Shown here in pieces: positions 1,524-42,553 of a DNA stretch of 42,553 bases. Numbering within the stretch: the stretch's first letter is position 1; each line of letters opens with the position of its first letter. Source of the stretch: an uncultured Lachnospiraceae bacterium (lineage in GTDB: Bacteria; Bacillota; Clostridia; Lachnospirales; Lachnospiraceae); contig CANRGZ010000006.1 of NCBI GenBank assembly GCA_947630295.1, positions 1-42,553 of the forward strand, read 5' to 3'. The notes beneath the pieces are model-generated. The model saw only the letters and a program-made list of their open reading frames with translations. It did not search any database and was not told where the DNA came from. The position numbers were made by a program, and so were the translations under genes.

Positions 1524-2138
1524 ATGCTGTACGATCAGAACATCAGAGAACCGCTGTTTGACTTTCTGGAAGACAGTTACGGTAAGATCCGCATTCTGGA
1601 AGAAAAGACCATGGGGAAATCCCGGGCGGATATCGTGATGATCACGGAAAATGCGCTTTTCGGTATTGAGATCAAAAGCGATGCCGATACCTACGCGCGG
1701 CTGGCCAGACAGGTAAAGGATTATAACCGGTTTTACGATTATAATATGGTAGTCACCGGAACCAGGCACGCCATGCATATCGAAGCCCATGTGCCGGACT
1801 GGTGGGGCATCATTACCGTAGAGGATACGCCGGCGGGCCCGGATTTTTACCGGCTGCGCCCGCCCGCGCCAAATCCGAAAATGAACTGGAAATCCAAGCT
1901 GTCCCTGCTTTGGCGGCCGGAACTGGCGCAGCTGCAGCAGGAAAATGCCATGCCTGCTTACCGGGACAAAAGCAAGGCCTTTGTCATAGAAAAAATCGCG
2001 GGCCGCATTCCGGAAAAAAGTACGGAAGACGCGCTGAACCGGCAGATCTGCGACATTTTGTTCGAGCGGGATTACACCACCATTGCGGAAACCCTTGCCG
2101 ACTACCGCAAGTCCGCCGGAAGACGCAGGCGAAAATGA
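1524..2138 (+). CDS. sce7726-like protein with PD-(D/E)XK nuclease-like core, 204 aa
   Basis: The central segment RADIVMI...FGIEIKSDADTYARL (about residues 34-62) resembles the D-x(n)-ExK core of the PD-(D/E)XK superfamily. It is followed by QVKDYNRFYDYNMVV, as in sce7726-type proteins. That family is predicted to be nuclease-related but has no established substrate. The C-terminus is basic (SAGRRRRK). The start ATG at 1524 is 2 bp after the preceding stop, which suggests translational coupling. The gene overlaps no neighbour and ends 10 bp before the methyltransferase start. Family call is fairly confident; function is inferred from fold only. Confidence 0.7.
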   Translation: MLYDQNIREPLFDFLEDSYGKIRILEEKTMGKSRADIVMITENALFGIEIKSDADTYARLARQVKDYNRFYDYNMVVTGTRHAMHIEAHVPDWWGIITVEDTPAGPDFYRLRPPAPNPKMNWKSKLSLLWRPELAQLQQENAMPAYRDKSKAFVIEKIAGRIPEKSTEDALNRQICDILFERDYTTIAETLADYRKSAGRRRRK

Positions 2139-2148
2139 AAGGAAAACC

Positions 2149-3366
2149 ATGGACGGAACAAACAATCATACCGTCGTACAATTAAAAAAAGGAGAAGGCC
2201 GCACGGTGAAATCCGGCGGTCTTTGGATTTATGACAATGAAATCGACCGGATCAGCGGTCATTTCCGAAACGGAGAAATGGTGACCGTCTGTGATTTTGA
2301 CGGATATCCCTTGGGCAGAGGCTACATCAATCAAAATTCCCGGATCCGGGTCCGGATGATGACACGAAACGCGGCGCAGGAGATGGACGCCGCGTTTTTT
2401 CGAAAACGGCTGCAGGATGCCTGGGAATACCGCAAAAAAGTAACGGATACATCCTGCTGCCGCATTGTATTCGGGGAGGCGGACTTTCTGCCGGGGCTGG
2501 TGATCGATAAATTTTCCGACGTGCTGGTGGTACAGGTACTGACCCTGGGGATGGAAGCTTTTAAGTTGGAAATTGTTTCCATATTAAAAGCGCTGCTGGC
2601 AGAGGACGGCATTTTCATCCGGGGCGTCTATGAAAGAAGCGACGCCAGAGAGCGGAAAAAAGAAGGCCTGCCGGAGGTGACGGGCTTTCTCGGAGAAGAA
2701 TTTGACACGATGGTGCCGGTGACGGAAAATGGCATCCGCTATATGGTGAATGTCAAAGACGGGCAGAAGACCGGGTTCTTTCTGGATCAGAAATACAACC
2801 GGCTGGCGGTGCAGAAACTCTGTCGGGGCGCATCGGTGCTGGACTGTTTTACCCACACCGGATCCTTTGCATTAAACGCCGCATACGCCGGGGCATCCTC
2901 TGTGCTGGGGGTGGATGCGTCCGCCCTGGCCATCCAACAGGCACAGGAAAACGCCCGGCTCAATCATCTGGAAGATATCACGCAGTTTATCTGCGCGGAC
3001 GTTTTTGAACTGCTGCCTGCACTGGAAAAGGAACAGAAGCGGTTTGATGTAGTGATTTTAGACCCGCCTGCCTTTACCAAATCCAGAAATTCCATTAAAA
3101 ATGCAGTCAAAGGATATCGGGAAATCAATCTGCGGGGTATGAAGCTGTTAAAAGACGGCGGCTATCTGGCCACCTGCTCCTGTTCGCATTTTATGGACAA
3201 TGCAACCTTTGCCGGAGCCATCCGGCAGGCGGCTGCCGGCGCCCACAAAATCCTCAGACAGGTGGAGATGCGTACCCAGGCGCTGGATCATCCCTATCTC
3301 TGGGCGGCGGATGAGAGTTATTATCTGAAGTTCTTTATTTTTCAGGTGCTGGAAAGCCGTAAATAA
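2149..3366 (+). CDS. rlmI: Class I SAM-dependent rRNA methyltransferase, RlmI family
   Basis: This protein of 405 aa should methylate a cytosine in 23S rRNA using S-adenosylmethionine (the RlmI family modifies C1962 in E. coli). An N-terminal PUA-like region (about 1-80, with KSGGLWIYDNEID) precedes a Rossmann methyltransferase domain. The SAM-binding loop DCFTHTGSFALNAAYAG is at about 231-247, VLGVDAS follows, and the catalytic-site motif ILDPPAFTKSR is at about 302-312. CSCSHF near residue 342 corresponds to the m5C-family cysteine motif. The ATG at 2149 was chosen because it follows AAAGGAAAACC and matches family starts; an in-frame ATG at 2083 lies inside the previous gene. The exact target base in this organism is inferred. 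Confidence 0.85.
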   Translation: MDGTNNHTVVQLKKGEGRTVKSGGLWIYDNEIDRISGHFRNGEMVTVCDFDGYPLGRGYINQNSRIRVRMMTRNAAQEMDAAFFRKRLQDAWEYRKKVTDTSCCRIVFGEADFLPGLVIDKFSDVLVVQVLTLGMEAFKLEIVSILKALLAEDGIFIRGVYERSDARERKKEGLPEVTGFLGEEFDTMVPVTENGIRYMVNVKDGQKTGFFLDQKYNRLAVQKLCRGASVLDCFTHTGSFALNAAYAGASSVLGVDASALAIQQAQENARLNHLEDITQFICADVFELLPALEKEQKRFDVVILDPPAFTKSRNSIKNAVKGYREINLRGMKLLKDGGYLATCSCSHFMDNATFAGAIRQAAAGAHKILRQVEMRTQALDHPYLWAADESYYLKFFIFQVLESRK

Positions 3367-11603: not shown

Positions 11604-13283
11604 ATGATAAACGCTTCAAAGTATACCAAACAGTTTTATCCCGTGCAGAATCCCACCCGCAGGTGGGCTGCAAAGACCAGTATCGATCATCCGCCGGTAT
11701 GGTGTTCGGTGGATCTTCGGGACGGCAACCAGTCTCTGATCATCCCCATGGGACTGGAAGAAAAGATTGAATTTTTCAAGCTGCTGGTAAAAATCGGATT
11801 CAAGGAGATCGAAATCGGATTTCCCGCGGCTTCCGAGACGGAATACAATTTCCTGCGGACCCTGATCCATGAAGGACTGATTCCGGACGATGTGACGATC
11901 CAGGTGCTGACCCAGGCGCGGGAGCATATCATCCGCAAAACTTTTGAAGCGCTGGAAGGATGCAAAAACGCGATCGTACATCTGTACAATTCCACTTCGG
12001 TGGCGCAGCGCGAACAGGTATTTAAAAAATCCAAAGAAGAAATCATCAAAATCGCTACGGATGGCGCTGAGTTGTTTGACCGGATCGCCTCCGAAAGCGG
12101 AACCAGTTACCGGTATGAGTATTCACCGGAATCCTTTACCGGAACCGAGCCGGAATTTGCACTGGAAATCTGCAACGCGGTGCTGGACGTCTGGAAACCC
12201 ACGCCGGAGCGGAAGGTGATTATCAATCTGCCGGTGACGGTGGAGCTTTCTTCGCCCCATGTTTACGCCGATCAGATCGAGTATATGTGCGATCATCTGA
12301 AATACCGGGATTCCGTGGTGGTATCGCTGCATCCTCACAATGACCGGGGCTGCGCGGTGGCGGATTCCGAACTGGGCCTTTTGGCCGGAGCGGACCGGAT
12401 CGAAGGCACGCTGTTCGGCAACGGAGAACGTACCGGCAACGTGGATATCATTACGCTGGCCATGAATATGTATATGCAGGGCGTGGAACCAAATCTAGAT
12501 TTCACCGACATGCCTTCCATTGTCAATCTGTATGAACGGGTGACGGGGATGCAGGTCAGCGACCGGCAGCCTTACGCCGGAAAACTGGTCTTTGCGGCAT
12601 TTTCCGGTTCCCATCAGGACGCCATTGCCAAGGGCATGCGCTGGCGGGAAGAAAAACACTGCGACACCTGGACCGTACCTTATCTGCCCATTGATCCGAC
12701 AGATGTGGGCCGGGAGTACGAGACCGATGTCATCCGCATCAATTCCCAGTCGGGCAAGGGCGGCATCGGCTATCTGCTGGAGCACAAGTTCGGCTATATC
12801 CTGCCGGTGGCCATGCGGGAAGACGTTGGGTATACGGTCAAAAATGTGTCCGACCACGCCCATGCGGAGCTTTCACCGGAGGAAGTACTGGATGTATTCC
12901 GTGATACGTACGTCAACATCAACAATCATATCCGGCTGATTGATTATCATTTTGTACGGACACCGGCGATCAAGGTTATGCTGACCGTGGAGATCGACGG
13001 AGAAGTCAAAGAGCTGACGGCGGGCGGCAACGGCCGTCTGGATGCGGTCAGCAATGCGGTGAAGCGGCAGCTGGGCATCGGATTTTCCGATCTGACTTAC
13101 GAGGAACATGCGCTGAACAAAGGATCTTCTTCCCAGGCCATTACCTACGTCAGCATTACGCTGTCAAACGGCCGGAAAGTCTGGGGCGCAGGCATCCACG
13201 ACGACATCATTGCATCGTCCATCAACGCGCTGTTTTCCGCAATAAATCGAGGTATTGAGGAGGAAGGCTTATGCGAAGCATAA
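11604..13283 (+). CDS. leuA: 2-isopropylmalate synthase (long LeuA type)
   Basis: This 559-aa enzyme condenses acetyl-CoA with 2-oxoisovalerate, the first committed step to leucine. The divalent metal and catalytic region appears as WCSVDLRDGNQSL (about 33-45) and SLHPHNDRG (about 243-251), with GNGERTGNVD following. The C-terminal regulatory domain (about 430-559) should bind leucine for feedback inhibition. The N-terminal sequence and length resemble the long LeuA type known from Actinobacteria and some Clostridia rather than the ~510-aa E. coli type. The last ~8 residues (EEGLCEA) and the stop codon lie inside repeat copy 2, so the native C-terminus has been replaced or extended by that element. 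Confidence 0.94.
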   Translation: MINASKYTKQFYPVQNPTRRWAAKTSIDHPPVWCSVDLRDGNQSLIIPMGLEEKIEFFKLLVKIGFKEIEIGFPAASETEYNFLRTLIHEGLIPDDVTIQVLTQAREHIIRKTFEALEGCKNAIVHLYNSTSVAQREQVFKKSKEEIIKIATDGAELFDRIASESGTSYRYEYSPESFTGTEPEFALEICNAVLDVWKPTPERKVIINLPVTVELSSPHVYADQIEYMCDHLKYRDSVVVSLHPHNDRGCAVADSELGLLAGADRIEGTLFGNGERTGNVDIITLAMNMYMQGVEPNLDFTDMPSIVNLYERVTGMQVSDRQPYAGKLVFAAFSGSHQDAIAKGMRWREEKHCDTWTVPYLPIDPTDVGREYETDVIRINSQSGKGGIGYLLEHKFGYILPVAMREDVGYTVKNVSDHAHAELSPEEVLDVFRDTYVNINNHIRLIDYHFVRTPAIKVMLTVEIDGEVKELTAGGNGRLDAVSNAVKRQLGIGFSDLTYEEHALNKGSSSQAITYVSITLSNGRKVWGAGIHDDIIASSINALFSAINRGIEEEGLCEA

Positions 13284-13341
13284 CCAGGAATGCCTTCCGA
13301 CGATTTGGCAGGGGCGCTTTTCAAGCGCGCGTGCCGTTACC
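13259..13341 (+). repeat. Dispersed structured repeat, copy 2 (leuA-leuC junction)
   Basis: This 83-bp copy has the same boundaries as copy 1 and differs from it at scattered positions. It encodes the end of leuA in one frame. In another frame, from ATG 13271, it opens a 34-codon ORF reaching 13375 that resembles the one in copy 1. The hairpin arms GCGCTT/AAGCGC are intact around a changed loop (TTC instead of CCC). Confidence 0.85.
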
Positions 13342-13350
13342 GAATAAAAA

Positions 13351-13373
13351 GGAGGAAGGCTTATGCGAAGCAT
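13351..13373 (+). repeat. Partial repeat copy that provides the leuC ribosome binding site and start
   Basis: These 23 bp repeat exactly the first 23 bp of copy 2 (13259-13281), from GGAGGAAGG through the ATG to GAAGCAT. GGAGG at 13351-13355 is seven bases from the ATG at 13363, which is read as the start of leuC. The two 23-bp segments flank the rest of copy 2 as direct repeats, 92 bp apart. Confidence 0.85.
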
Positions 13374-28221: not shown

Positions 28222-28301
28222 AACGGATGAGAGTAAAATGAGAAGAAAATGAACTTTTTATGAAATTTACAACTTATACATCATGTGATATCATAGAAAG
28301 A

Positions 28302-28381
28302 GGAGGAAGGCTTATGCAAAGCATAATTTTAAATGCCATCCGACGATTTGGCAGGGGCGCCTCGGGCGCGCATGCCACTAC
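28302..28381 (+). repeat. Dispersed structured repeat, copy 3
   Basis: This 80-bp copy starts GGAGGAAGGCTTATGC and ends ATGCCACTAC. Compared with copies 1 and 2, the second hairpin changes both arms together: GCGCTT/AAGCGC becomes GCGCC/GGCGC around TCG. Pairing is therefore kept. The outer GGAAGGC arm faces GCCATCC here, with one mismatch. It lies 20 bp before the yifB start. Confidence 0.75.
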
Positions 28382-36645: not shown

Positions 36646-37566
36646 ATGGCGATTACAGCTTCAATGGTAAAAGAGTTAAGAGAAATGACCGGCGCAGGCA
36701 TGATGGACTGCAAGAAGGCATTATCAGAAACAAACGGCAATATGGACGAGGCAGTAGAGTACCTCAGAAAGAACGGCCAGGCCAAGGCAGAAAAGAAAGC
36801 CGGCCGTATCGCAGCAGAAGGTATTGTAACGACTGCGATCGAAAATGATAAGAAAGCCGTGATTGTAGAAGTCAACAGCGAGACGGACTTTGTTGCGAAG
36901 AACGAAGATTTCCGCACTTATGTGGCACAGGTTGCGGATCAGGCGCTGGGTTCTTCCGCAGCGGATATGGACGCCTTCCTGCAGGAAGCATGGAAAGCGG
37001 ATCCGTCCAAGACGGTCAAGGATTCTCTGGTTGAGAAGATCGCAGTTATCGGCGAGAACCTTACCATTCGTCGTTTTGAAAAGATTGAAACCGAAGGCGC
37101 TGTTGTATCCTATATCCACGGCGGCGGCAGAATCGGCGTGCTGGTTGCAGCAGACACTGCGGTTGTAAACGATGCGGTGAAGGAAGCGCTGGTGAATGTA
37201 GCAATGCAGGTTGCAGCCCTTTCTCCCAAGTATGTTTCCGCAGCGGATGTTTCCGAGGAATACAAGAATCATGAGAAGGAAATCCTGCTGGCACAGGCCA
37301 AACTGGAAAATCCGAACAAGCCGGACAACATCATCGAAAAGATGATCATCGGCCGTCTGAACAAGGAACTGAAGGAGATTTGCCTCCTGGATCAGCCTTA
37401 CGTAAAAGACGGCGATGTGACGGTCGGTCAGTATATCAAATCGGTTTCCAAGGAAGTTGGTACGGATATTACTGTGAAGAAGTTCGTCAGATTTGAGACC
37501 GGCGAGGGCATCGAGAAAAAGGAAGAAAACTTTGCGGAAGAAGTTGCAAAACAGATGGGAATGTAA
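36646..37566 (+). CDS. tsf: Translation elongation factor Ts
   Basis: This 306-aa nucleotide exchange factor for EF-Tu has the N-terminal UBA-like domain with LREMTGAGMMDCKKAL (about 10-25) and the conserved CNSETDFVAKN-like stretch, here VNSETDFVAKNEDF (about 78-91). The dimerisation core extends to the C-terminus (ENFAEEVAKQMGM). The ATG at 36646 follows CAGGAGGATTTG. In many bacteria pyrH and frr come next; here an AT-rich, phage-like segment begins right after the stop codon and no terminator is visible. Confidence 0.95.
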   Translation: MAITASMVKELREMTGAGMMDCKKALSETNGNMDEAVEYLRKNGQAKAEKKAGRIAAEGIVTTAIENDKKAVIVEVNSETDFVAKNEDFRTYVAQVADQALGSSAADMDAFLQEAWKADPSKTVKDSLVEKIAVIGENLTIRRFEKIETEGAVVSYIHGGGRIGVLVAADTAVVNDAVKEALVNVAMQVAALSPKYVSAADVSEEYKNHEKEILLAQAKLENPNKPDNIIEKMIIGRLNKELKEICLLDQPYVKDGDVTVGQYIKSVSKEVGTDITVKKFVRFETGEGIEKKEENFAEEVAKQMGM

Positions 37567-37856
37567 GTACGTTGGCGAAGTTTTAAATCTGAGAGCCAAT
37601 AAAGCCAGTAAATACAAGGGTTTCAAAGACTTTCGATTGATTATCGTGAATTGCGTAAAGTACCGTATTCTACCGTAACTTGCCATAAAATATCAGGCTG
37701 TTTTGAGTAAGATTTGGGTACAAAAATGCGTAAAACCGAAATCAAATCCCTTCGGAGAAGTTTACGCAACTGTGACTTGAAATGTTTAACACCGACACAA
37801 ACGAATATCAATAGCGTAAATTGGCAACTACTTATACAAACGTAATAGTAAATATT
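37567..37856. other. Junction region with repeated GCGTAAA motifs; no gene seen
   Basis: No credible gene was found between tsf and the membrane protein leader. The heptamer GCGTAAA occurs at 37653-37659, 37728-37734 and 37814-37820, and in inverse orientation at 37761-37767. Short repeated heptamers beside a junction resemble arm-type binding sites of tyrosine integrases. A direct GTACCGTA/CTACCGTA pair is near 37659-37677. An attachment-site function is inference. Confidence 0.4.
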
Positions 37857-37925
37857 GTTATGAATCAGAAGATAGGGTATCCAATGTTTTATGGTTGGCT
37901 GCCCTTTCTTCTGATAATTCATAAC
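37857..37925 (+). repeat. Long imperfect hairpin upstream of the membrane protein gene
   Basis: GTTATGAAT (37857-37865) and CAGAAGA (37866-37872) pair with TCTTCTG (37907-37913) and ATTCATAAC (37917-37925), with a three-base bulge. Additional AGGG/CCCT and CCAA/TTGG pairing is possible inside. It ends six bases before the ribosome binding site of the next gene, so a leader regulatory role is possible. Confidence 0.5.
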
Positions 37926-37943
37926 TATGGAAGGAGGATTGAA

Positions 37944-38417
37944 ATGAAAGTCTTTAAACGCTCGTTACCTACATTAATATGGATATTGCTTATGATAATA
38001 GGCATTATTTTCCTATCAAATTCTGGTGCAAGTTATGGTCAATATAGAGAAGAAGCATGGCATATTGTCCGACCGATATTTATGGGTTCTGCTTTATTTT
38101 GGGTTGTGGCTATTTTGATGATTATACAAACTATCATTTTGAATATGAAATCCATTAAATACCATGCTGTAATAGAAAGCATATTACTGGTTGGTATTAT
38201 CTGTGCCACTGTTTTCTTGTTTAAAAATTTTCTTGATTTTACAGCAAGTTATGAAACGGTCACAAAAATGACTGACTCAACAGAAGCAGATTTAAATATA
38301 TTAGCACACATATTTTCCTATCGTAAAACCATTTTGTTATATACCGTCTTATCTATTGGAGCAGCGGCAGCTAATGTAGCATTAGATTTTATCGTAAAAA
38401 AGAGGGATATAGCCTGA
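37944..38417 (+). CDS. Hypothetical four-helix membrane protein, 157 aa
   Basis: The protein is not recognised. About four hydrophobic helices are visible: residues ~8-27 (LPTLIWILLMIIGIIFLS), ~46-66 (ALFWVVAILMIIQTIIL), ~75-95 (VIESILLVGIICATVFLF) and ~128-150. The N-terminus is positive (MKVFKR) and the C-terminus ends KKRDIA. The ATG at 37944 follows AAGGAGG at 37931-37937; the frame is open further upstream through the hairpin, but without a ribosome binding site. It is the only plus-strand gene of the AT-rich element and converges on the DGR operon. A cargo or superinfection-type function is possible but unsupported. Confidence 0.6.
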   Translation: MKVFKRSLPTLIWILLMIIGIIFLSNSGASYGQYREEAWHIVRPIFMGSALFWVVAILMIIQTIILNMKSIKYHAVIESILLVGIICATVFLFKNFLDFTASYETVTKMTDSTEADLNILAHIFSYRKTILLYTVLSIGAAAANVALDFIVKKRDIA

Positions 38418-38427
38418 ACTATATCCC
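38396..38427 (-). terminator. Terminator of the DGR transcript
   Basis: TATATCCC (38420-38427) and GGGATATA (38404-38411) form an 8-bp stem with an 8-base loop. On the minus strand it is followed by CTCTTTTTTAC, a good T-run. It overlaps the end of the plus-strand membrane protein gene. Confidence 0.75.
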
Positions 38428-38437
38428 CCTAAAATTA

Positions 38438-38668
38438 TTATTCAATTTCTTCTTTAAGAGTTGCTAATTCTTCTTGAATAGCATTAATTTCATCCCTTAC
38501 TGCTTGTCTTTGTGTATGAAGCTCATTTACATCGTATGGGGATTCTAACCCTAACAGTTGACACTCCATACATTTAGAAATTTTCCAATCACCAATAGGT
38601 GAAGTAGTGCAACTAAGCATTGCCTGTAAATCTCTAATTCTCTGTTCTTTTTCTTGATAGGTGTTCAT
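38438..38668 (-). CDS. Small coiled-coil protein overlapping the RT gene, 76 aa
   Basis: The ATG at 38668 is preceded by GGGAGAG (about 38677-38683) and lies 35 bp inside the end of the reverse transcriptase gene. The protein starts MNTYQEKEQRIRDLQ, has the segment TTSPIGDWKISKCMECQ with a CxxC pair, and ends in a heptad-like helix (RDEINAIQEELATLKEE). It resembles small proteins seen in gut phage tail regions, from memory only. It could be a DGR accessory or a phage structural or assembly protein. The upstream in-frame ATG at 38749 would put 27 more residues inside RT and lacks a ribosome binding site. Confidence 0.65.
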   Translation of the reverse strand: MNTYQEKEQRIRDLQAMLSCTTSPIGDWKISKCMECQLLGLESPYDVNELHTQRQAVRDEINAIQEELATLKEEIE

Positions 38669-39866
38669 AATAGTCTCTCCCTTCAATAAATGGTTTAATA
38701 AATAAATCATTATACAATTTATCCATTCTTTTTTGTGTTTGATATGCACTGTAATGTTTTAAACTACCACGCCATGAACCATATGCCTCTGAAATATCTT
38801 GATAAGACATTTTACCTTCATCAAGAAGTTGTCTAAACTTCTTTAATTTTCTACGCTCTCTTGTGATAGCCTTTTTATTCATCCGCTTAATTACCTTTCC
38901 AGTGCTTGTAAAAGTATATCTTACTTTTAAAAATGTAAATCCTTTTGATATTTTTACAATCTGAGTTTTCTTTTGATTAATGAATATACCATATTCTTTA
39001 CAAATGTTATTAATATCTAATAATAATTGTTGCAAATATTCTTTACTTGGATGAATAATATATGTATCATCCATATATCGTCCATAATATTTTAGACCTT
39101 TTACAATCTTACAATAATTATCTATACGGGTTGGATAAAGTAGACCTGATACCTGAGAAATTTGACTACCAATTCCGATAGATTTCTCCATATATCTCTT
39201 ACCAGTTAATAATCTTTTATCAATCTTTGCATATTCTAAAGCGTTAAATACCGTAGTAAGACAATATTTATATTCTTCATCATTCATATAAGAAACATCA
39301 ACTTTAAAAGCATTAATGATTTTACGAATAAACTCTAAAGTTTCCTTGTCTTTTAATCTCTTTTCAAATTCTTCCATTAATTTATCATGACGAACATTAT
39401 CAAAAAATTTAGTAAAATCAATTAATAGTATATAACCTTCATTAGTTCTGTATTGACGATAATATTTATGTAAATGTGTAACAAGTCTATTTCTTGAAAA
39501 TTCAACACCTTTATTTTTTAAAGAAGCTCCATTATCATAGATAAAATATTTTGTAAAAAATGGCGTGAGAATATTATCACATAGTGACCTCAATACAACT
39601 CTATCATAAATATGAATAGCTTTTATTTCTCTCATTCTTCCTCGTTCACATAGAGGAAATTCATTAAACGGTAATTGTTCATAAGTATTAGATAAAATTT
39701 CATCTTGGGATTTGCTTAAATTACGTAACAAATTCATTTCATATCGTTGCACAGACTCTTTCCATATACTTCCCTTTTTACATTTCTGAAAAGCATCGTA
39801 TAGTTTATTTCCATCATAAAAACTACTAAAATCTGTGTTATTTTTAATACTATCTTTCATTATCAT
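38634..39866 (-). CDS. DGR reverse transcriptase
   Basis: This 410-aa reverse transcriptase should copy the TR RNA into cDNA with errors at adenines. The catalytic aspartates are in LLIDFTKFFDNVRH (about 147-160) and YGRYMDDTYII (about 261-271; YMDD at 264-267). The segment IGIGSQISQ (about 230-238) carries the xGxxxSQ motif that distinguishes DGR reverse transcriptases from group II intron and retron enzymes. The C-terminus ends in a thumb-like helical, basic region without maturase, endonuclease or HNH domains. GAGG lies about ten bases before the ATG at 39866. It follows the TR, in the order target-avd-TR-RT known from the Bordetella phage DGR. Confidence 0.95.
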   Translation of the reverse strand: MIMKDSIKNNTDFSSFYDGNKLYDAFQKCKKGSIWKESVQRYEMNLLRNLSKSQDEILSNTYEQLPFNEFPLCERGRMREIKAIHIYDRVVLRSLCDNILTPFFTKYFIYDNGASLKNKGVEFSRNRLVTHLHKYYRQYRTNEGYILLIDFTKFFDNVRHDKLMEEFEKRLKDKETLEFIRKIINAFKVDVSYMNDEEYKYCLTTVFNALEYAKIDKRLLTGKRYMEKSIGIGSQISQVSGLLYPTRIDNYCKIVKGLKYYGRYMDDTYIIHPSKEYLQQLLLDINNICKEYGIFINQKKTQIVKISKGFTFLKVRYTFTSTGKVIKRMNKKAITRERRKLKKFRQLLDEGKMSYQDISEAYGSWRGSLKHYSAYQTQKRMDKLYNDLFIKPFIEGRDYYEHLSRKRTEN

Positions 39867-40141
39867 TTATCATTTACCTCGTTTCTAACACCAACTGACG
39901 TATCAGGATGTATCAAGATAATCATTTTCCTTGCGGAAGGACAAAGCTCTCCTTTCCTTAACCGTATATCGGCACGTAGCCTACACATAGTATACGGTAA
40001 CGAAATCGGGCGCACACCGTTACTGTTAGAAGCGTTGTTGTTGTTGGAATTACCATTGTTGTTGCAATTCGCAAAATTCGTAGCAGAGGCGTATACAGAG
40101 CTTACCCTAAAGAAAAAGCAGAACATAGTTATGTCCTGCAA
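39867..40141 (-). ncRNA. DGR template RNA region (contains TR)
   Basis: This 275-bp non-coding gap between the Avd-like gene and RT contains the TR and ~135 bases downstream of it in the transcript sense. In known DGRs that downstream spacer folds, binds RT and Avd and primes cDNA synthesis. Visible structure includes inverted repeats ACCGTATA (39961-39968)/TATACGGT (39991-39998) and GGAAGGA (39935-39941) with TCCTTTCC (39950-39957). RNA ends are not determinable from sequence. Confidence 0.75.
40003..40091 (-). repeat. DGR template repeat (TR), 89 bp
   Basis: Read on the minus strand it contains twelve AAC/AAT codon-like triplets in register with the VR frame. It aligns without gaps to VR at 40824-40912 (offset 821). 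Eleven positions differ, and every one is an A in the template sense. Beyond both ends the two sequences diverge at non-A positions as well, which sets the boundaries. Confidence 0.95.
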
Positions 40142-40711
40142 TTAACTTTCTTTATTATTTCCTGTTTGCTTTGTTTTTGATTCTTCTTGGATTCTTTTTA
40201 AAATACGATTGTCACTTTTTCTCCATCCTTTTAATAACGCAATTTCTTTTTCTATCATTCTCGTATATTGTAGATATTTATTAATATCTGTTGGAATAAC
40301 TGAAATAATATACTGCATCTCTTGAAGTAATTGTTCACAATTACCAATAGCACGATTTTGAAAATTTCTTCGCTCAAAGAACTCCGATTCAAAAACAGGA
40401 TAGATAGTATTGGCTTGTGTAATGTTCATGATTATACTATGTAAAATATTTAGAATATTATTTCTCATTTTATCAATAAGCCAGTCAGGATATTCATCTA
40501 ATATATATAATTGACCATATTTTTTGACCAACTCATTGAATACTATTTTATCTTCTTCGGACATATTTTTAGTAAGAGCGGTAGCATTTCTCACTTTATC
40601 TTTAATACCAAAATTTCTTAATAAGAGAATTGTTAAATCTCTTCGTAAAACAATAGCATTACGATAAAACTCCAAATCTGATAAATTTCTTTTATTTTTT
40701 AAAACACTCAT
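40142..40711 (-). CDS. avd: Avd-like accessory protein of the DGR
   Basis: This 189-aa, strongly helical and basic protein contains LSDLEFYRNAIVLRRDL near residues 10-26, typical of the Avd/four-helix-bundle family. That family forms a pentameric barrel, binds the template RNA and RT, and is required for mutagenic retrohoming. It is longer than the ~128-aa Bordetella phage Avd; the extra length is mainly a C-terminal basic tail (KRIQEESKTKQTGNNKES). It lies between the VR gene and the TR. AAGGAAGG precedes the ATG at 40711. Assignment rests on position and partial sequence resemblance. Confidence 0.8.
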   Translation of the reverse strand: MSVLKNKRNLSDLEFYRNAIVLRRDLTILLLRNFGIKDKVRNATALTKNMSEEDKIVFNELVKKYGQLYILDEYPDWLIDKMRNNILNILHSIIMNITQANTIYPVFESEFFERRNFQNRAIGNCEQLLQEMQYIISVIPTDINKYLQYTRMIEKEIALLKGWRKSDNRILKRIQEESKTKQTGNNKES

Positions 40712-40776
40712 ATAATAATAAACCTTCCTTTACCTTTTATTATTTTATAAACAATCCATTCTTTGTTATTAAAAAC

Positions 40777-40803
40777 ATCCCGACCCCACAAGGGGGTCGG
40801 GAT
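40777..40803 (-). terminator. GC-rich hairpin downstream of VR (terminator and possible DGR target hairpin)
   Basis: ATCCCGACCCC (40777-40787) and GGGGTCGGGAT (40793-40803) form an 11-bp perfect stem with a 5-base loop, starting seven bases after the VR gene stop. On the minus strand it is followed by GTTTTTAA, so it can terminate. In studied DGRs a hairpin or cruciform just beyond VR increases retrohoming. Confidence 0.85.
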
Positions 40804-40809
40804 TTAAGA

Positions 40810-41775
40810 TTAACCGATTAAGAAAAGCGGGCGCACACCGTAACTGTTAGAAGCGTCGTCGTTGCCGGAATGACCATTGCCGTCGCAAATCGCAAAATTC
40901 GTAGCAGAGGCGACAGCAGATAACCAATACCATTGTCTACCACCATCGCCCGTTCCACCTAAACCACAAACTTTTGCAGTTGGGTCTAATCTAAATAATG
41001 GAAGTTGTAAATTTGCCGCTCCAATATCATAAAATGAAGAACTAAATACTGTTGAACCATATAATTGTACTTCGGACATAAGGCGTAATTGTATACTGAC
41101 CCATTCCCATCCAGAAGAATAACCAGTAAAATTAGCACCAGCCATAGAAACACCCTGTGCAGACTGTTTATGTGTTAATAAATCTTTGAATGATAATAAA
41201 TGATTTTGTAACGCAGTCTGTAAAGCAGTCGCATATATGGGTAATACAAGTTGATTCATATCGCTACCTTCATATGCAGCCTTTTGTAAATCTGCGGAAG
41301 TTTGTTTTACAGAACCTACAGGATTATCAGGATTTGCCGATACACCAGTTGTATTTGTACTATTCATTTTTGCAGTTGCGGTAAAACAATTTTTTGGTAC
41401 AACTACTGCATGATGTTTTACTAATGATGTATCACCGTTCTTTAAATACATATCAAAACCAGCAAGGACACAACGAACGGTTTCATTCTCAGTAAATGTA
41501 GTATTAATTGTTACATCAAAATAATCACCAATAAATAAATCAGCGAATTTTCCACTATTAATCATTTCACAAATTTGAGTGATAGTATAAACATTATTTA
41601 AATTTTTCCCTCTAAAAATTGCATTATGCGCCGCTGCTGTTTGAGGAATTAATGTTGCAAGAGCATCCGCATATCTAATTGATTTTGTACCGCCAGCGGT
41701 TTCAATTAAAAGTAAATCTTCAGCAGATAAAGAAGTTACTTTAGCAATATCACTTATTTTTGTATATGTAGCCAT
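40810..41775 (-). CDS. DGR variable protein, probable phage receptor-binding/tail protein
   Basis: In this 321-aa protein the first ~200 residues look like a phage structural region; it starts MATYTKISDIAKVTSLSAED. The C-terminal part (about 225-321) resembles the C-type-lectin-like fold used by DGR targets, with SEVQLYGSTVF, LPLFRLDP, QWYWLSAVASATNF and NSYGVRPLFL. Residues ~288-318 are encoded by VR. Nine codons differ from TR, giving I, D, G, H, G, D, D, Y and L where the template would give N (eight positions) or I (one). AAGGAGG lies before the ATG at 41775 and overlaps the end of the upstream tail-fibre gene. Adhesion to a host surface is the expected role, by analogy to Mtd. Confidence 0.88.
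   Translation of the reverse strand: MATYTKISDIAKVTSLSAEDLLLIETAGGTKSIRYADALATLIPQTAAAHNAIFRGKNLNNVYTITQICEMINSGKFADLFIGDYFDVTINTTFTENETVRCVLAGFDMYLKNGDTSLVKHHAVVVPKNCFTATAKMNSTNTTGVSANPDNPVGSVKQTSADLQKAAYEGSDMNQLVLPIYATALQTALQNHLLSFKDLLTHKQSAQGVSMAGANFTGYSSGWEWVSIQLRLMSEVQLYGSTVFSSSFYDIGAANLQLPLFRLDPTAKVCGLGGTGDGGRQWYWLSAVASATNFAICDGNGHSGNDDASNSYGVRPLFLIG
40824..40912 (-). repeat. DGR variable repeat (VR), 89 bp
   Basis: This is the gapless partner of TR, located in the last ~105 bp of the target gene and ending 11 bases before its stop codon. Its promoter-distal end (40828-40840, GTGTGCGCCCG in the sense direction) is GC-rich and unchanged, as expected of the initiation-of-mutagenic-homing site. 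Confidence 0.95.
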
Positions 41776-41788
41776 ATCTATGACCTCC

Positions 41789-42553
41789 TTACGTTGTAAT
41801 TAATTTAAAACTTGAACTAATAATAGCTCCATCATCAGTTGTAATAAGTATATTGTTATTTGTGCAAATTCCAAAAATGGCTTCTTTTTTAACAAGCATT
41901 CGTTCTAACATTGATACATCTTCTTGTAAAGTTTCAACTTTATTTTGCAAATCAGCAATAGCTTCTAATAAAGAATCCATTGTGCCAGCAAATACATCCC
42001 ACTTTCCATCAGTTGTATAATAAACATTTGTACCATCAGTATATGTATGTCCAGCACCTTCTTTAAAATTTGTATCTGTAATAAATCCATCACTAATGTT
42101 ATACATATAACCAGCAACTTTACTATCGGCATTTAAAGCAAAAAATTCTTTAGAAGTAATAGTACCTCTAGGTATAATTGCTCCATTTAGTGATTGAACA
42201 AGTTGTAAAGCTAATTCATAATAATATTTTGAATTATCTGTATCATCATTAACTCTTGTTTCACCACCTGTACCAACTGCATAACTTTTTGAAAGATTTG
42301 AATAATCTTTAGCATTTTTCTCCGATGTAGCAGCAGCATTTTGTGATTTCTTTGCTTCATTTTCAGAAGTCTTAGCATTGTTTTCACTTGTTTTTGCGGC
42401 AGCAGCAGATTTTTCACTTGCATCCGCAGAGTCAGCAGAATCATCAGCACTATTTTTAGAATCATTTGCTGATTGTGCAGCAGCATTTTGTGATTTCTTT
42501 GCTTCATTTTCAGAAGTCTTAGCATTGTTTTCACTTGTTTTTGCGGCAGCAGC
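41789..42553 (-). CDS. Phage tail-fibre-like protein, 5' partial
   Basis: The frame is open from the right window edge and 254 residues are visible. The first ~90 are a low-complexity Ala/Ser/Asn/Lys/Glu coiled-coil-like repeat (AKTSENEAKKSQNAAA and similar), typical of tail fibre shafts. A globular part follows (GGETRVNDDTDNSKYYYELA, GAIIPRGTITSKEFFALN), then a short coiled coil (LLEAIADLQNKVETLQEDVS) and a C-terminal domain ending SSSFKLITT. It lies 13 bp upstream of the DGR target gene, so the two are probably made together and may assemble in one tail structure. The starts near 42106 are internal methionines. Confidence 0.8.
   Translation of the reverse strand, partial: AAAAKTSENNAKTSENEAKKSQNAAAQSANDSKNSADDSADSADASEKSAAAAKTSENNAKTSENEAKKSQNAAATSEKNAKDYSNLSKSYAVGTGGETRVNDDTDNSKYYYELALQLVQSLNGAIIPRGTITSKEFFALNADSKVAGYMYNISDGFITDTNFKEGAGHTYTDGTNVYYTTDGKWDVFAGTMDSLLEAIADLQNKVETLQEDVSMLERMLVKKEAIFGICTNNNILITTDDGAIISSSFKLITT
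42330..42553 (-). repeat. 147-bp tandem repeat unit in the tail-fibre gene
   Basis: The 77 bp at 42330-42406 are repeated exactly at 42477-42553, an offset of 147 bp (49 codons). The second copy runs into the window edge, so the number of units is unknown. Near-perfect nucleotide identity suggests recent duplication or ongoing recombination. Confidence 0.85.

Follow-up and report, generated by a model that had tools for sequence, protein, structure and literature searches.

The diversity-generating retroelement (DGR) of Bordetella phage BPP-1 (mtd/Avd/TR/brt) combines the gene order target-Avd-TR-RT and a position near the phage attachment site with adenine-biased changes in a C-terminal variable repeat (VR), an IMH, a hairpin after the VR and a spacer between the template repeat (TR) and the reverse transcriptase (RT) gene (PMC3240598, PMC12875486), all of which it has in common with the locus that we describe here, where the attachment site is a probable one. 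Its IMH consists of a stretch of G and C only, plus a 21-bp element that departs from the TR at five positions; the phage DGRs described earlier carry 4-nt GRNA loops in the inverted repeat after the VR, and function is lost in BPP-1 when the loop is lengthened by 2 nt or changed to CTTT (PMC3240598). In BPP-1 the spacer is reported to adopt a fold and to recruit RT-Avd (PMC12875486). The same order of target, Avd, TR and RT is found in Roseburia phage Shimadzu and in the human-gut phage MT835664.1, both of which are arranged as tail tip, target, Avd, TR, RT and lysis genes (tape measure, tail proteins, BppU, target, Avd, TR, RT, holin and endolysin in MT835664.1) and have RTs that are ~39% and ~33% identical to ours, respectively. 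The nearest relative is IMG/VR contig 3300006213_000868 (L003), with an RT 69%, an Avd 66% (E 4e-11) and a target 55% identical, and with a spacer and a hairpin similar to those described below. Some 31,000 DGRs had been catalogued by 2021 (PMC8144416), and our locus, an ordinary and correctly recognised member of this known family, adds one well-resolved case to a large catalogue.

The window, the whole stretch of 42,553 nt that was analysed, corresponds to contig C6 in the draft assembly of a gut-type bacterium; this contig breaks off at 42553, within the repeats of a fibre gene. The cassette is transcribed from the minus strand in the order fibre, target, hairpin, Avd, TR, spacer, RT and 103-aa ORF, and its features, by coordinate, are the following:

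38438..38749, minus strand: small ORF of 103 aa downstream of the RT gene, matching PHROG 17180
38634..39866, minus strand: DGR reverse transcriptase of 410 aa, with IGSQISQ (232) and YMDD (264) (PHROG 1423, E 1e-75; RVT_1)
39867..40002, minus strand: TR-RT spacer, the structured part of the DGR RNA (covariation; model match at 39874-39997)
40003..40091, minus strand: template repeat (repeat pair detected mechanically; adenine-only differences)
40003-40019, minus strand: IMH*-side end of the TR, with a fixed A at 40006
40142..40711, minus strand: Avd-like accessory protein of 189 aa (a modest match to PHROG 3206, 'Avd protein of DGR', E 9e-9)
40777..40803, minus strand: inverted repeat with an 11-bp stem and the loop CTTGT, a candidate hairpin/cruciform target element (z = -5.6 as single-stranded DNA)
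40810..41775, minus strand: target (variable) protein of 321 aa, predicted C-type-lectin fold, C-terminal VR (ORF; AlphaFold model; structural matches; 24 related VR-bearing proteins)
40824..40912, minus strand: variable repeat, at the 3' end of the target gene (repeat pair and comparison with the TR)
40824-40840, minus strand: IMH side of the VR, with C at 40827
41789..42553, minus strand: C-terminal part of a tail fibre/BppU-type protein, cut by the contig end (tail-fibre PHROGs)

This is almost certainly a DGR of the phage tail-tip type, mutagenic retrohoming being the one reading compatible with every part, namely adenine-only changes that include transversions, an RT, an Avd, a lectin target, an IMH, a hairpin, a spacer RNA and the same bias in relatives. 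Anatomy, adenine-only bias, direction from TR to VR, conserved RNA and hairpin elements and homology are all observed at the locus. The exact cassette was found in a single genome among those examined. It differs from the described systems in several details: Avd has 189 aa instead of the 128 aa of BPP-1; upstream of the target lies a BppU-type fibre gene, whereas L003 has baseplate J and further tail genes; and Shimadzu and MT835664.1 retain a wider phage context where the window holds a fragment only.

It had been claimed from the window alone that 89 aligned bases contain 11 differences, all at the 27 adenines of the template and none at the other 62 bases, and that they record at least one past round of mutagenic retrohoming. 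Realigning 40003-40091 with 40824-40912 (ungapped, as reverse complements) bore this out: there are 0 gaps and 11 mismatches over 89 bases, and these hit 11/27 template adenines versus 0/62 other bases (TR composition A27 C24 T22 G16; Fisher p = 3.6e-7), with no substitution at a template C, G or T. The substitution counts (A>G 7, A>C 2, A>T 2) were also correct. What has to be amended is the number of mutagenic changes: all 11 do lie at template adenines, but the outermost, 3'-most one (A40006/C40827) is the fixed IMH*/IMH mismatch discussed below, which leaves 10. The bias survives this correction, since in the 82-base core without the IMH site 10/26 adenines differ versus 0/56 other bases (p = 2.5e-6). 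None of the 11 mismatch sites has an A in the VR, so the direction from the TR (40003) to the VR (40824) is unambiguous. The repeats match far better than chance would allow (E = 7e-26 within the genome), and the 1.9 Mb assembly contains no third copy, a search of the genome having found no additional VR. Outside the 89 bases homology stops at once on both flanks (two T mismatches and more non-A differences), so the boundaries of TR and VR are fair.

Similar repeats could also arise if the target gene's 3' terminus had undergone an ordinary duplication and the copies had then diverged by drift or selection, with an accidental adenine pattern, and selection on a binding surface could indeed concentrate changes. 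We consider this very improbable, because 0/62 non-A sites differ (p = 3.6e-7), because the unmutated adenines are held by the copy on the RT side, and because RT, Avd and spacer RNA are adjacent. The comparison with relatives goes further. A scan prefiltered on adenine bias would have been circular, and repeats were therefore sought upstream of 37 related RTs with no base filter, which yielded 35 distinct TR/VR pairs. In these, 523/986 template adenines differ versus 25/2344 template C, G or T (p ~ 3e-292), although the 35 pairs are not all independent as several loci are closely related; duplication is thus already refuted by the pooled bias. Four of the related loci, from Treponema and IMG/VR contigs, carry, several kb upstream, an additional VR that belongs to another target protein, of ~199 aa where complete (L012 319-411, L013 1026-1118, L052 1664-1758 and L053 3115-3205).

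Alternatively, the VR could have been changed by adenine-specific editing or deamination instead of reverse transcription, which would equally place every change at A. Deamination gives A>G only, however, and transversions make up 4/11 of the changes here (3/10 without the IMH site). The replacement bases in the relatives are G 257, T 138 and C 128, a spectrum from which the 10 core changes of the window do not differ (p = 0.39), and an RT and a template copy lie next to each other. This explanation is already refuted, and we give it practically no weight. At least one past round of mutagenic retrohoming is thus supported by an adenine-only pattern that includes transversions, by the DGR parts and by the 35 relative pairs; this conclusion concerns past homing, not present activity.

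The A/C mismatch recurs, in the same form as TR A40006 and VR C40827, in 29 of the 30 TR/VR pairs that were compared at this position (the window's own and 29 from relatives, so that 28 of the recurrences are in relatives). The 3' border has GATT in the template and GCTT in the recipient, the one exception carrying C on both sides. The mismatch is also present in MT835664.1, Roseburia phage Shimadzu, Acutalibacter phage Fontainebleau, Dulem virus 34 and others, distant phages whose RTs are only ~29-40% identical. A randomised site would not yield C every time, which is why we read A40006/C40827 as an IMH*/IMH marker and not as a mutagenesis event; it adjoins an identical, GC-rich 3' stretch, the arrangement expected of an IMH. 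In practice, this fixed position inflates the adenine-bias counts in the gut-phage DGR group by one false 'A to C' per pair. Where BPP-1 has five IMH/IMH* mismatches, there is here a single A/C, and this conserved single-base mismatch may be new, as a minor point.

A second difference concerns the hairpin, which starts 6 nt past the stop codon of the target gene and has a GC-rich stem. In nearly all relatives a 6-11-bp stem lies 4-44 nt from the end of the VR, with differing sequences and mostly without a T run. We considered 40777-40803 as a plain intrinsic terminator: a T run does follow it in the window, but most of the relatives' hairpins lack one, so a terminator alone does not explain why the hairpin is conserved. 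Loops in the relatives are mostly of 5 nt (CTTGT, GTTTA, CGTGT, GGTGA and others). Compared with the GAAA-type GRNA loop of BPP-1, the CTTGT loop here is of 5 nt, and the prevalence of 5-nt loops over 4-nt GRNA may be another new if minor point. The comparison yields two testable points on how target and template are told apart, one conserved mismatch and a different hairpin loop. Tentatively, and with more doubt than conviction, we suggest that in a large group of gut-phage DGRs one conserved base (GATT in the TR, GCTT in the VR) takes over from the five-mismatch IMH/IMH* of BPP-1 the role of distinguishing recipient from template, along with a 5-nt-loop hairpin replacing GRNA. If true, this would be a different target-recognition code protecting the TR from being overwritten.

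The RT adjoins the TR and contains the [ILV]GxxxSQ and YxDD motifs. Its best solved relative is 8ub7 ('Reverse transcriptase', E 3.5e-15), which we take to be the BPP-1 DGR complex, and its score against group II introns (83 bits) is far below the cut-off of 300 bits. The 103-aa ORF is probably the last gene of the cassette. Across 16 spacers, 18/20 predicted pairs have changed on both sides, and 94% of the cells are paired, versus 71% in shuffles and 30-54% when slid. A covariance model built from these spacers finds the spacer in DGRs outside the model set, including MT835664.1 (E 7e-7) and L032 (E 6e-7). It is the covariation alone that is significant, the thermodynamic fold of the spacer by itself being unremarkable (z = -0.9), and there was no Rfam match in 37500-42553. 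The structure agrees with the report on the BPP-1 spacer (PMC12875486). The same genome contains a second DGR-type RT, 44% identical, that is cut by a contig start (L039, contig C1, 3-860) and followed by a small phage-type ORF (829-1146) and a tyrosine integrase (1763-3022), that is, a second prophage with its own DGR; the TR and VR of this second DGR were not found in the assembly.

The target protein ends shortly after the VR, whose end lies 11 nt from the stop codon. An AlphaFold model built with 25 aligned relatives (mean pLDDT 78, pTM 0.80, the N-terminal 38 residues being unreliable) places the VR across the last strands, and the modelled C-terminus would be a C-type-lectin fold holding the VR. 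The structural matches are mostly C-type lectins, among them 9qa6 (Z 14.1) and T. denticola TvpA (2y3c, Z 6.4), of which only 9qa6 stands clear, as a Z of 6.4 can also be reached by unrelated folds whose arrangement is a common one. This clear list of lectins came solely from the second structural aligner, Foldseek having given no match of the model below E 0.001 in the PDB; searches with the protein sequence found no match in viral_contigs or among PDB sequences. TvpA is likewise a DGR variable protein with a C-type-lectin fold, in its case a cellular target and not a phage tail protein. In the frame of the target gene, 27/27 TR adenines fall at codon position 1 or 2 (15 and 12, respectively), twelve codons are AAC or AAT, and no combination of substitutions at TR adenines can reach a stop codon. 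The ~8e15 protein variants reachable from the TR would be as many receptor-binding variants, never truncated by a stop.

How the cassette would work can be proposed from research on BPP-1, from which we take the enzymatic steps, spacer priming, IMH/hairpin recognition and receptor binding. RT and Avd would copy the TR RNA into cDNA, with errors opposite template adenines and priming from the structured spacer between TR and RT. The cDNA would then take the place of the VR in the 3'-terminal part of the target gene. There, the GC-rich stretch on the 3' side, with its IMH mismatch, may mark the recipient together with the hairpin beyond the VR, and 23 bases of perfect 5' homology would permit completion. 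The product would be a receptor-binding protein of C-type-lectin fold, whose gene follows one for a BppU-type baseplate or fibre protein, and the whole would belong to what is probably a piece of a prophage integrated at the tsf 3' end. The borders of this insert are marked by a short repeat:

37552..37566, plus strand: left copy of the 15-bp tsf 3'-end sequence CAGATGGGAATGTAA, a probable attachment-site core
C33 647-661: right copy of the 15-bp tsf sequence with one mismatch, CAGATGGGTATGTAA

The last 72 bases of contig C6 are exactly the first 72 of contig C33, and the fibre gene apparently continues there in positions 1-645, which contain BppU_N. Within the window, fibre gene positions 42305-42553 hold two 102-bp direct repeats that are 90% identical, inside which the assembly breaks. 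Synteny with two congeners extends to the last base of tsf (37566) and resumes at C33:647, the congeners having other genes in between. With the 15-bp repeats at both borders, the arrangement looks like a site-specific insertion at the tsf 3' end. The insert appears to be a tail-tip/DGR prophage fragment of ~5.6 kb. At its right border the BppU domain starts at profile position 23, ~21 residues apparently being missing, judging from the alignment to a complete relative, and the fragment is probably defective, with a truncated fibre gene and no integrase seen; the contig break lies in a repeat, and a full prophage may be present between the borders. The BppU part had no match in viral_contigs.

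These features bear on whether the DGR is a fossil, in which the VR was mutated in the past and the capacity has since been lost with a defective prophage. A fragment of ~5.6 kb whose BppU gene has lost its 5' end and which shows no integrase would fit, as would the absence from the assembly, a draft broken inside the fibre gene, of any match to the portal PF04860 or to the baseplate J of L003. The absence of phage genes is weak evidence, however, given that contig break in the fibre repeats and the fact that the contig upstream in the second prophage is missing as well; phrog_2, used as a terminase marker, had no match in the assembly either, but it is uninformative, with matches in 11/14 control genomes. 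Moreover, the RT, Avd and target ORFs are intact, and the identity of TR and VR at every non-A site suggests that homing was recent relative to drift. We regard loss of the capacity as a real but lesser prospect.

What lies between tsf and the pst operon varies within the genus (37566 to C33:647 here; L047 2413-4081; L048 5081-5578): the interval contains the DGR fragment and a DUF4143 ATPase in our genome, an AbiEi/AbiEii-type pair in G002 and another gene in G001. At the left end of the insert, on the opposite strand, 37821-38417 (plus) encodes a 198-aa membrane protein with a weak YmiA-like match only, possibly a prophage accessory gene. Finally, a dispersed repeat of ~80-110 bp, with copies 83-93% identical, is found in the window at 937-1026, 13258-13373 and 28297-28376, and again in C33 (14325-14414 and 18361-18524) and C1 (3681-3777).
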